Shown in pieces: positions 8,070 to 40,300 of a stretch of DNA of 64,000 bases. How positions within the stretch are numbered: position 1 is the first letter of the stretch; the number at the start of each line of letters is the position of its first letter. The position numbers and the translations under genes were made by a program. The DNA lies in the NCBI GenBank assembly GCA_017559905.1, contig JAFYQF010000024.1, forward strand, positions 1 to 64,000, written 5' to 3'. This stretch comes from a bacterium (GTDB taxonomy: Bacteria; Cyanobacteriota; Vampirovibrionia; Gastranaerophilales; Gastranaerophilaceae). The notes below the pieces were generated by a model. It ran no database searches, was not told the origin of the DNA, and saw only the letters and a list, made by a program, of their open reading frames with translations.

Positions 8070-8408
8070 TTAACCACCAATCAAGTTCAATCCACAACTT
8101 GCTTTGATGTTGTTTTGAACTAGTGATTTTGTACTGTTGATTTCTTCAGTCAACAATGTAATCTGGTTACTTAACGAATCTTGTCTTGATGTTAAATATT
8201 CTTCTTCTTTTTGTAATGCTACGTAATATGGATCATCGTCCAAATCAACTGATCCACCTCCGTTGGCACCGCTTAATAAATCTGCACGGTCTGCCATTTC
8301 TTGTTGAAGCCAATTCGCTTGGTTCATAATCAATGTTTGTTCAAATTCCAACTGGCTCTTCTGTAGCATAAATAAACTTCTCTGTGAACTTAATGCTAAA
8401 AAAGTCAT
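8070..8408 (-). CDS. Small hypothetical protein related to the SQARLL family
   Basis: I do not recognise a named family. The 112-residue protein starts MTFLALSSQRSLFMLQKSQLEFEQ and ends with a predicted coiled coil (ITLLTEEINSTKSLVQNNIKAS). Both ends resemble the much larger proteins at 36920-38608 and 39086-40210. Those begin with SASQARLLTITAR or AASQARLLSITAR and end with LxTE(I/H)xxLxTEYDxxKSxIxKN(I/V)xK. The middle is an acidic, Gly/Asn-rich linker (LSGANGGGSVDLDDD). There is no signal peptide or membrane segment. An AAGGAGAG ribosome site precedes the start. It could be a stand-alone short member of the family. Confidence 0.7.
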   Translation of the reverse strand: MTFLALSSQRSLFMLQKSQLEFEQTLIMNQANWLQQEMADRADLLSGANGGGSVDLDDDPYYVALQKEEEYLTSRQDSLSNQITLLTEEINSTKSLVQNNIKASCGLNLIGG

Positions 8409-8514
8409 ATCATCTCTCCTTATTTTTTTAGTGCTCTCTTATAAATATAAAGTATTTGAAAAACATCGAATTTCAGAGATGCTCTTTTTTGTTACATTAG
8501 TTTACATTAAATAA

Positions 8515-8538
8515 AAAAGCCCGAAACAACGGACTTTT
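8515..8538 (-). terminator. Rho-independent terminator of dnaJ
   Basis: AAAAGCCCG (8515-8523) pairs with CGGACTTTT (8530-8538) around a 6-base loop, with one G-U pair. On the minus strand the stem is followed by a T run. The hairpin overlaps the dnaJ stop codon. Confidence 0.75.
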
Positions 8539-36892: not shown

Positions 36893-36921
36893 AAAAAGTC
36901 GGGATTAAATCCCGACTTTTT
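36893..36921 (-). terminator. Terminator of the 562-residue SQARLL gene
   Basis: AAAAGTCGGGA and TCCCGACTTTT (36894-36920) form a strong stem around TTAAA. It overlaps the stop codon at 36920 and may act in both directions. Confidence 0.85.
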
Positions 36922-38608
36922 ACGCATTATATCGTTTAAACGATTTTTCAATATTCTTTTGAATTACTGATTTTATCGTATCGTATTCCGTTGATAGTGA
37001 AGAAATTTCTGTATCCAAATTTTTCATCTTCATATCTAGGATATTTTCTTTGTTATTAATTTTAGCTTTTTCTCTTGCATAACGAGCTTCAGCTTGAGCA
37101 ATACCTTCTTCGTCAGTTACCTCTTTAATAAAAGTATTAGTTGCATAGTTACCTTGATAGTAGAAACCATCATCAGAAAGTGTTGAAATATACATATTAC
37201 CGTTTTTGAATGATTCTTGTAAGTATCTATCATCTTTAACGTTAACATTTTCAACCCAACCTTTAGCACAGATTTGGTTAAACAAAGCATCCCAGAACGC
37301 CGCGATTAACAAGTTGTCACCAGAAGTATCTACATCAGTAACCATTGTGAACATAAACATATCATCAATCAAGTTACTATCTGCAACAGTACGTCCATCT
37401 TCTGACCTACCGCTTTTATAATTATCATTATCGTCAACTTTGTATGAAGAAGTATCAATACCTTCCATATATTGTGCAAAATATGTCAAGTAAGCTTTTA
37501 CCATATTTGACAAGTTTAAACCATAAGCATCATTGTACTCATCATCGCCAGGGCTTGATGCGTTTTGGATATAAACAATACCAATATGACCGTCAACATC
37601 CGCTCTATTTAATTGTTTACCAATTTCTTTAGAACTGTTACCACTAGCCCACATACTTTCCATAAAAGATTGACCACAGCGTTTGAAAAATGCAAAGTTT
37701 GAATGGTCAAGACCTCCAGAGTCAGTGATATCACTCAAACACTCAACAATATCCATTGTCATACTTCTTGCATAAGCTAATGCTGCTTGAGTATATGGGT
37801 CCCCTGTATCTAACAAATCTTCAAATTGAGTGAACATATCTTCCCAGAAACTTGATGTTGCAACACAGTCAGTTACAGCCCAAGAATAATATGGATCGCC
37901 ACTTTTTAAATGGTCAAAATTACCTTTAATACTGTAGTTACCATTTAACAAATCACCTAAAGAGATTTTGCCACCAGTACCCAAGTTAGTGTTGCCTTCA
38001 TATATATCAAGGCTGAAACCACCTTGCTCGGTACTTAATCCGTTAGCAAGGTCAGAAAAATCATAATAAGAACTGCTTACCATTTCAATCAAATCTTGTA
38101 ATGTACCTGTTGTTGTATTAACGTTAACAAGATTTGCATCACCAACACCAGCAGCTTGGTTATAGGTAGTTTTCTTGATATTATCAGCTTGAACTTGAGA
38201 AATATAACCTGTTCCTGCTAAAGAATCAATAAATGCATTGCGCAAGTCAGATGATGGCAAACCATCAAGACCTTCTTGTGGAATACCTGCATCACGTGCA
38301 GCTTTTGCCAATCTGTCATCAAGAACAATTCTACCTGAAGAATCAGTAACAGGCATTGGAGTGTAATTATTAAGTTGAGATGGTGCCATCAACAAACCAT
38401 AATTCAATGGCATTTGTTCTGAACCAGTTCCATAATAATCATAAACCAGTTTTGTTTGATTCATAGCATTGTCATATTCCGCAGAAACCTTTTCCATATC
38501 TCTAGACAAGGCAATCTTTTGGTGCGAAAGACGCATGCTTTCGTACTCACAGTCAGATTTTCTGGCTGTTATGGTTAATAATCTCGCTTGTGATGCTGAT
38601 AATCCCAT
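36920..38608 (-). CDS. Large SQARLL-family hypothetical protein
   Basis: I recognise no characterised family. The 562-residue protein begins MGLSASQARLLTITARKSDCEYESMRLSHQ, an amphipathic helix, and ends with a coiled coil, ILDMKMKNLDTEISSLSTEYDTIKSVIQKNIEKSF. The middle (about 70-480) is Asp/Asn/Ser/Gly-rich and polar, with many segments resembling secreted or surface proteins (GDDEYNDAYG, SGDNLLIAAFWD). No signal peptide or membrane helix. The 374-residue paralog (39086-40210) and a 112-residue relative (8070-8408) share both ends. The N-terminal motif could be a secretion or assembly signal. Palindromic repeats flank the gene. Confidence 0.75.
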   Translation of the reverse strand: MGLSASQARLLTITARKSDCEYESMRLSHQKIALSRDMEKVSAEYDNAMNQTKLVYDYYGTGSEQMPLNYGLLMAPSQLNNYTPMPVTDSSGRIVLDDRLAKAARDAGIPQEGLDGLPSSDLRNAFIDSLAGTGYISQVQADNIKKTTYNQAAGVGDANLVNVNTTTGTLQDLIEMVSSSYYDFSDLANGLSTEQGGFSLDIYEGNTNLGTGGKISLGDLLNGNYSIKGNFDHLKSGDPYYSWAVTDCVATSSFWEDMFTQFEDLLDTGDPYTQAALAYARSMTMDIVECLSDITDSGGLDHSNFAFFKRCGQSFMESMWASGNSSKEIGKQLNRADVDGHIGIVYIQNASSPGDDEYNDAYGLNLSNMVKAYLTYFAQYMEGIDTSSYKVDDNDNYKSGRSEDGRTVADSNLIDDMFMFTMVTDVDTSGDNLLIAAFWDALFNQICAKGWVENVNVKDDRYLQESFKNGNMYISTLSDDGFYYQGNYATNTFIKEVTDEEGIAQAEARYAREKAKINNKENILDMKMKNLDTEISSLSTEYDTIKSVIQKNIEKSFKRYNA

Positions 38609-38763
38609 TGTCTTGTCCGAAATCCTTTCAAGTTAGTAACAATCCTATTTATTCATGTAGTATGACGGCTTTTTCAGCCTAAAACTTTAAAAAGTTTATA
38701 GCTGTTTGTAACATTTATTTACATAAAATCATAAATTATTCTCCCACTCTATGAACGAACACC

Positions 38764-38911
38764 TGTCATCCTGAACGAAGTGAAGGATCTCTATTGATTG
38801 AGATTCTTCAGCACTTCGTACTCCAGAATGACATGATGAGATTCTTCAACTCTTACGAGTTTCAGAATAACGTAATTGAGATTCTTCTTCGCTTACGCTC
38901 ATCAGAATGAC
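38764..38911. repeat. Cluster of three palindromic repeat units
   Basis: Units at about 38764-38833 (double, inverted), 38838-38871 and 38878-38911 share GAGATTCTTC...CAGAATGAC or its complement with the cluster at 36694-36887. Together the two clusters flank the 562-residue SQARLL gene. Confidence 0.75.
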
Positions 38912-38997
38912 TGATGTTTCATCTTCCCCTGTAAAGGGAAATAGTTCTGTCACACAAAACTCTGTTCCAAGCGCCAATTTCACACAAAAAACTTTGC

Positions 38998-39023
38998 AAA
39001 AAAAAACCGCTTTGGATAAGCGG
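38998..39023 (-). terminator. Terminator after the 374-residue SQARLL gene
   Basis: CCGCTT (39007-39012) and AAGCGG (39018-39023) form a 6-base stem with a T9 run on the minus strand. Confidence 0.75.
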
Positions 39024-39085
39024 CAGGGAAATAGTTACGAAATTAGGGAAAATAATATGTGGGAAAAATTTAATAGGTAAATCTT

Positions 39086-40210
39086 TTATGAGAACGTATT
39101 GAATGTTTTTTCTACGTTCTTATCAATTATACTCTTAACTGAATCATATTCTGTCTGCAAAGCATTATGTTCTGTATCAAGTTTTCTTAATTGCATATCA
39201 AAAATATTGTCTTTTCTTTCAGCGTCAGCCATATCCATTTTGTATTGCTGTTCAACTCTAGCAATTTCTCGTTCATCCTCAACTTCTTGGATATTTGTAT
39301 CCTGATCAATTGAAGTAGAAATAAATTTTTTATCTACTGCTGAATAATATTCAAGTTGCAATTCGCCTTTACGAAGTTGCTCTTCAAACCAAGTATTATC
39401 TTTTAAAGTTTTTGTTTCATCAGCTTCAGTATAGTAACCTGTTTGTTGAATTCTTTGGAAAATATTCGTTAAATATTGGATGTATTCAGCGTTTTCAGGA
39501 TTTGCTGCAGTTTTCAATGTATTTGCAGAATCTGAATCGCCATAATACGCCTCTGTCAAAGCCATTGCATAGTCAAAGTTTTGACGTTGTTCAGGTGTTG
39601 TACCTTCGTAATTCAATGGTGTAGTCACACCGTCATAAGTGTATGTAGCAAAACCATTAAACGCACCCGCACCTAATGTTGTATAACCAAACTCAAGTCC
39701 GTGTTCTTCGTCCTCGAATTCTAGACCTACAGAAGTCAAATAAACATCCCAAGCATCGTGAATTTTTTGTTTTGCAAGTAACTTATCAACATCTTCATCC
39801 TCTGCGCCTGCAGTGTTTTTTGTGATGTCGATATTCGCTTGAGAATAACCCAAAGTCGCCAAGAATTTATTCAAGTCGCCATTTCCAGATTCATAAGCTT
39901 GCGCCATTTTTTCAGAAATCAAGACTTTTCCATCTTTATTTGTTACAACATATTGTTTACCAGCCGCAACAGTCTGAAATCCTGTCATCAATCCATACGA
40001 AATATCTGTATAAACTTCATCTGAACCATTAAATCCTGTAAGAACTGTCAATTTTGTAGCATCCAACGCTGCAAGATAGTTTTTGTTTAATTGATCCATC
40101 TTGTCAGTAAGTTGAATTTTAGCAGTGGAAATATCCTGACCCGTATTTTCGTTGTCAGTCAAACGAGCTGTAATACTCAACAATCTAGCTTGTGAAGCAG
40201 CCATTCCCAT
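39086..40210 (-). CDS. SQARLL-family hypothetical protein, 374 residues
   Basis: Paralog of the 562-residue protein. It begins MGMAASQARLLSITARLTDNENTGQDIS and ends with a coiled coil, IFDMQLRKLDTEHNALQTEYDSVKSIIDKNVEKTF. Between lies a mixed polar region with a Tyr/Gly stretch (GFATYTYDG) and a paired helix TPEQRQNFDYAMALTEAYYG. There is no signal peptide or membrane helix. The conserved ends and variable middle fit a family of structural or exported proteins with shared assembly segments. The 5' region has a hairpin, CCGTAAT/ATTACGG (40232-40256). Confidence 0.75.
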   Translation of the reverse strand: MGMAASQARLLSITARLTDNENTGQDISTAKIQLTDKMDQLNKNYLAALDATKLTVLTGFNGSDEVYTDISYGLMTGFQTVAAGKQYVVTNKDGKVLISEKMAQAYESGNGDLNKFLATLGYSQANIDITKNTAGAEDEDVDKLLAKQKIHDAWDVYLTSVGLEFEDEEHGLEFGYTTLGAGAFNGFATYTYDGVTTPLNYEGTTPEQRQNFDYAMALTEAYYGDSDSANTLKTAANPENAEYIQYLTNIFQRIQQTGYYTEADETKTLKDNTWFEEQLRKGELQLEYYSAVDKKFISTSIDQDTNIQEVEDEREIARVEQQYKMDMADAERKDNIFDMQLRKLDTEHNALQTEYDSVKSIIDKNVEKTFNTFS

Positions 40211-40300
40211 TTGCGTTCAGTCCTTTCATTATCCGTAATCTATACTTCCTATTACGGACAACTCTCAACTAAACTTTAAATAAAGCTAGAGAATATTAAG

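Follow-up and report, generated by a model that had tools for sequence, protein, structure and literature searches.

Two neighbouring genes of a Gastranaerophilales bacterium (Vampirovibrionia) raise the question of what kind of protein keeps both of its ends constant while its middle changes. Gastranaerophilales are gut bacteria, non-photosynthetic kin of the cyanobacteria, and the source genome comprises 1.84 Mb in 26 contigs. The window, by which we mean the whole stretch analysed (64,000 nucleotides, contig C24 positions 1-64000), encodes both genes on its reverse strand: SQARLL protein A1, of 562 aa, at 36920..38608, and SQARLL protein A2, of 374 aa, at 39086..40210. An earlier note on this DNA had described two large proteins with common conserved ends and no known domain, and had read the ends as assembly or secretion elements and the middle as a variable surface or cargo region.

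The SQARLL family, its ends and its middles

The description of the two proteins holds well. Both ORFs are intact, and iterated SQARLL profiles built from the ~60 N-terminal and ~75 C-terminal amino acids recover 11 long ORFs (E 1e-20 to 1e-35) in the stretches of this genome that were read, with all other ORFs there at background. One of the 11 is truncated by a contig end ahead of its C-terminus, a 12th copy is interrupted by a contig end at C13:54093, and a whole-genome search with the N-terminal profile returns 12 matches. The source genome has at least 12 SQARLL family genes, which are scattered and mostly monocistronic. Both window proteins belong to group A, with the signature MG(M/L)xASQARLLxITAR and LDTE...TEYD, while group B carries MGMAASQARFLGLTAR and LDTE...TEMDAV; A2 has nine orthologs that are 55-81% identical.

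The absence of a known domain is also borne out, in that the window proteins have no match above curated cut-off in Pfam, NCBIfam or PDB, the small window protein discussed below has none in Pfam or NCBIfam, and a PDB profile search with A2 is empty. Short SQARLL forms yield only generic coiled-coil noise in Pfam, PDB, PHROG and NCBIfam searches. On the same grounds we rejected PDB profile matches to haemagglutinin HA2 and SMC proteins and dismissed weak PHROG and NCBIfam matches. A plasmid search found no plasmid-borne copies.

AlphaFold models of both proteins (pLDDT 70 for A1 and 72.6 for A2, on alignments of 10-12 sequences) predict a globular insert with an alpha/beta middle, flanked on either side by a single long terminal helix. 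In A1 the N-terminal helix spans residues 4-49 and the C-terminal helix 500-561, with the variable middle between them; in A2 the helices span 2-50 and 313-373 and the alpha/beta middle 69-299. Foldseek comparison of the two models against PDB gives nothing at E<0.001, and the flagellar filament and hook-junction entries returned at E 0.5-0.9 are too weak to count as evidence of kinship. Hydropathy reveals no signal peptide-like or membrane segment in SQARLL proteins. SQARLL appears to be a large, previously undescribed family of constant helical ends and changing middles, and may represent a new secreted or surface-displayed kind of protein.

The contrast between ends and middles is visible in the DNA of paralogs. 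In the pairs L035/L036 and L038/L040, ~40-60 of 60 bases per block are identical at both ends, and the middles are unrelated and gapped. Near-identical ends around unrelated middles suggest gene conversion or cassette exchange. The contig ends of C13, C14, C16 and C8 (G000; L010, L011, L020, L035, L036) fall inside SQARLL genes; the near-identical paralog ends act as repeats, so the copy number may be underestimated.

The family is widespread, and its N-terminal profile finds it in 211 of 289 genomes of the class, at up to 20 copies. Every Gastranaerophilales genome drawn is positive (193/193; taxonomic families f1-f4), and the other 18 genomes belong to f6, f11 and f12. Large inserts are present in f1, f2 and f3. 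Members from f6, f11 and f12 are ~109 aa long, consist of both ends joined by a short loop, lack a middle altogether and occur at 4-7 copies per genome. A profile of this short form matches every long member of the source genome, plus a 108-aa protein of a cluster at L041:6546-9505 (E 5e-13). Since the outgroups f6, f11 and f12 carry these ends-only members, the ancestral SQARLL protein was most likely a short two-helix protein, from which the large window proteins would have been derived by insertion.

The L041 cluster comprises the 108-aa short member, a 91-aa ORF, a 273-aa glycine-rich MSYKND protein with no Pfam match, and SQARLL B4. The MSYKND neighbour again adjoins a SQARLL gene, of 117 aa, in f4 (L161).

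The earlier note had also assigned the conserved ends to a small window protein of 112 aa (8070..8408, reverse strand). Taken by itself, this protein scores E 0.1-0.3 against the family profiles, which is not significant, but the assignment survives in a weaker form, as remote membership without an insert. Orthologs of the small protein occur in 61/117 genomes of f1, and among 1415 ORFs the five best non-self matches to a profile of 30 of them are SQARLL proteins (best E 5.7e-4). Comparison of that profile with the short SQARLL family by hhalign gives 72-88% probability, which supports the small protein as a probable remote member. Its gene lacks a sigma-28-type site upstream. Instead, a distinct leader, TGAAATC ... 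AATACTTTATAT ... AAGAGAG ... AAGGAGAG, is conserved ahead of it at window positions 8409-8520 and in the upstream regions L184-L213, and this leader is not sigma-28-like.

Promoters and the export apparatus

Upstream of both large genes lies a sigma-28-type promoter that is conserved in orthologs: TTAAAGTTTTAGGCTGAAAAAGCCGT for A1 (38665..38690, reverse strand) and TTAAAGTTTAGTTGAGAGTTGTCCGT for A2 (40254..40279, reverse strand). The pattern TTAAAGTTT-N12-GCCG, or a near variant, precedes 10 of the 11 long SQARLL genes here, and the TAAAG...GCCG feature of the sigma-28 (FliA) regulon sits at a near-fixed upstream distance. In E. coli the FliA consensus reads TAAAGTTT-n11-GCCGATAA (PMC2859248), and most SQARLL sites space their two boxes one base further apart. 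A regular-expression search alone was uninformative (39 matches, versus 68 with the reversed pattern); the informative test combines a weight matrix, built from nine sites of this genome, with position near the start codon. Across 343 kb of this genome the matrix exceeds 20 bits solely at SQARLL genes, and the truncated 12th copy, which lay outside the training set, scores 25.5 bits. B4 and the short SQARLL members of this genome have no sigma-28-type site.

The site recurs in independent f1 genomes, where it is found at 46/46 SQARLL genes, 32-56 nt from the start codon, and at 6/120 other genes; its enrichment at SQARLL genes has Mann-Whitney p values of 1e-10 and 4e-12. In the remaining set, drawn mostly from other families, 15/31 SQARLL members carry it, including 109-aa ones, and the same motif precedes 5/18 flagellin genes of the class. 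The source genome encodes a true FliA (242.6 bits, cut-off 189.6), and we infer that SQARLL genes would be switched on by this sigma factor. Further sigma-28-like sites in this genome lie at L100:7668-9011, L097:7238-8371, L096:6988-7392, L095:1093-1458, L101:8918-9424 and L092:8858-10135; the genes there are candidate regulon members of mostly unknown function, one being HD-GYP-like by eye.

A nearby secretion system, which the earlier note had proposed looking for, exists in flagellar form: fliR-Q-P-O lies on the window's contig at ~90.9-93.4 kb, outside the window and ~50 kb beyond A1 and A2. The source genome encodes FlhA, FliP, FliE, FliF, FliH, FliQ, FliR and a FliM/N-type protein, together with FlgB, FlgC, two FlgF/G-type proteins and a hook-like protein, while the proteins in FliJ, FliK, FliO and FliG positions are assigned by place or between-genome similarity only. 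No flagellin domain (Flagellin_N, PF00669) is found in the whole source genome at E<=1. No SQARLL gene lies in any apparatus operon, and none appears around the second fliP among the contexts listed. Two further genes, at L036:4864-6588 (C14:230.9-232.6 kb) and L051:4396-5871 (C6:92.4-93.9 kb), encode just the cytoplasmic portion of FHIPEP (FlhA/SctV), each behind a different N-terminus. SQARLL copies lie ~2 kb and ~13 kb away from them, and the two products may serve as soluble docking factors for substrates.

Across the class, FliP is present in 232/289 genomes and flagellin in 95/289. FliP accompanies SQARLL in 210 of the 211 positive genomes, 125 of the 211 lack flagellin, and only 1 of 57 FliP-less genomes has SQARLL (G124, in 130 contigs), counts that are inflated by shared descent. 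Where a SQARLL genome also encodes flagellin, it usually carries two FliPs. In a maximum-likelihood tree, E. coli FliP falls in a flagellar clade that is set apart, with support 100/99, from a second one; the second clade holds the source genome's sole FliP and the second FliP of f1, f4, f6, f11 and f12, with the FliP of f9 at its base. This pattern shows that the source genome's apparatus, as judged from its genes, is the second one, distinct from the flagellum, and that SQARLL carriage tracks it. The apparatus is not always accompanied by the family, since FliP occurs without detected SQARLL in nine genomes of f7, four of f8 and nine of f9, and f8 and f9 carry a single FliP. The f9 genomes (G006, G012, G018 and others; L147, L148) have a filament-less flagellar-type system with neither flagellin nor detected SQARLL.

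Proposed role and competing explanations

On balance, we lean towards a second, filament-less type III secretion apparatus of flagellar type that would export SQARLL proteins as late substrates under sigma-28 control; by this reading they are analogous and not homologous to flagellin. Once the apparatus is ready, FliA would transcribe the SQARLL genes, and their products, in which hydropathy shows no Sec-type signal, would exit by way of the FlhA/FliPQR gate, with the conserved N-terminal helix as guide. The helices of both termini may then pack extracellularly into an assembly core, comparable to D0/D1 of flagellin, hook-associated and needle proteins, while the inserted middles would point away from it and provide variable domains for display or cargo. 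Several observations weigh against this reading: the extra base in the promoter spacing, the missing sites at B4 and the short members of this genome, the absence of SQARLL genes from apparatus operons, the f8 and f9 genomes with FliP but no detected SQARLL, and the lack of kinship in sequence or fold to flagellin, rod, hook or needle proteins. The earlier note's reading of ends and middle gains partial support from strong, if indirect, evidence. The sigma-28-type promoter, the export apparatus, the terminal helices, the 109-aa ends-only form, and middles that differ though the flanking DNA is nearly identical all fit it, and from these we infer secretion or export, extracellular assembly and surface display. 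More tentatively, the filament or tip of the second apparatus, which Vampirovibrionia would have evolved alongside the true flagellum, might be built from SQARLL in place of flagellin; gut Gastranaerophilales would then have repeatedly lost the flagellum, kept the machine, and turned 109-aa subunits into a large, recombining surface-display repertoire, a possibility we consider rather doubtful.

One alternative is export by the same apparatus without assembly. The proteins might be set free as soluble effectors or adhesins instead of joining an appendage, their ends forming a secretion and chaperone-binding module and the middle being the active part. Such cargo would explain the scattered monocistronic genes, the numerous paralogs and the unrelated middles as well as subunits would, and the extra FHIPEP cytoplasmic-domain proteins near two copies are possible docking factors. 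However, outgroup members consist of the ends only, at 109 aa and in 4-7 copies, and so have no cargo left, and a C-terminal helix conserved to its last residues suits assembly better; we therefore regard release as fairly unlikely. An export signal itself cannot be proven from sequence, and the flagellar sigma factor drives non-structural genes too, as the candidate sites ahead of an HD-GYP-like gene and genes of unknown function illustrate. SQARLL proteins could accordingly be cytoplasmic coiled-coil members of the flagellar regulon, such as export helpers or regulators of motility or sensing, that never leave the cell. Yet fast-changing middles, near-identical ends and up to 20 paralogs would be unusual for housekeeping partners, which makes this explanation improbable.

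It is also conceivable that SQARLL comprises surface proteins, or mobile or phage-derived ones, outside any flagellar-type system, and that promoter and co-occurrence are accidents of lineage. Genes that look by eye like phage capsid, portal and terminase (L037:774-7670) do lie directly before SQARLL copy A7. Against this stand the promoters at 46/46 genes, the order-wide distribution of the family and the lack of a convincing PHROG match or any plasmid match, and we consider this origin very improbable. If the substrates of a second apparatus are indeed what SQARLL proteins are, then the flagellar gene sets of gut Melainabacteria, treated in published work as incomplete and non-functional, would be a working secretion or display machine across an order of animal gut bacteria, and its variable proteins, under sigma-28 control, might come into contact with the host or with other microbes. 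On the same condition, one could trace here how a short two-helix protein became a display scaffold through domain insertion.

Comparison with flagellar and needle systems

Flagellin and the hook-associated proteins (FliC, FlgK, FlgL) are the closest analogy. Like them, SQARLL proteins have conserved helical ends, a variable inserted middle and multiple copies, as well as a sigma-28-type promoter, no signal peptide visible by hydropathy and a flagellar export gate in the genome; the flagellin-type layout of long end helices around an inserted variable domain is present in the AlphaFold models of A1 and A2. Unlike them, SQARLL occurs in flagellin-less genomes, has an outgroup form of 109 aa, and shares no sequence similarity or significant fold match. 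Profile comparison led us to reject direct kinship to flagellin, FlgB or FlgC; with 18 N-termini of flagellins from the class, the hhalign probability is 0.7%.

The needle proteins of type III secretion fold as two-helix hairpins. The short SQARLL form falls in the ~80-150 aa class of the SctF needle and the FlgB/FlgC and FliE rod proteins, likewise with an export gate in the genome, but SQARLL differs in lacking their Pfam matches, in having 4-7 paralogs per genome and in its later large inserts. Neither Flg_bb_rod (PF00460) and Flg_bbr_C (PF06429) nor the needle family is among the Pfam matches listed for 17 short members and the window proteins, and no needle structure (SctF) is among the PDB profile matches listed.

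Flagellar genes themselves have been noted in these organisms before. In the available portions of the earlier papers, one gut genome is reported without filament, cap and hook-filament junction genes (PMC3787301), partial flagellar gene sets are described in the order (PMC5877343), and such partial sets of gut Melainabacteria are interpreted as incomplete or lost flagella (PMC3787301, PMC4040986, PMC5877343). Those same portions contain no description of a separate FliP lineage or of the SQARLL family, and we found no description of type III secretion for these lineages in the open-licence literature. The organisms are identical to ours, as are the basal-body and export genes, in so far as these portions describe them; where our account differs from those portions is in placing the genes with a separate FliP lineage that is kept without flagellin and together with SQARLL.
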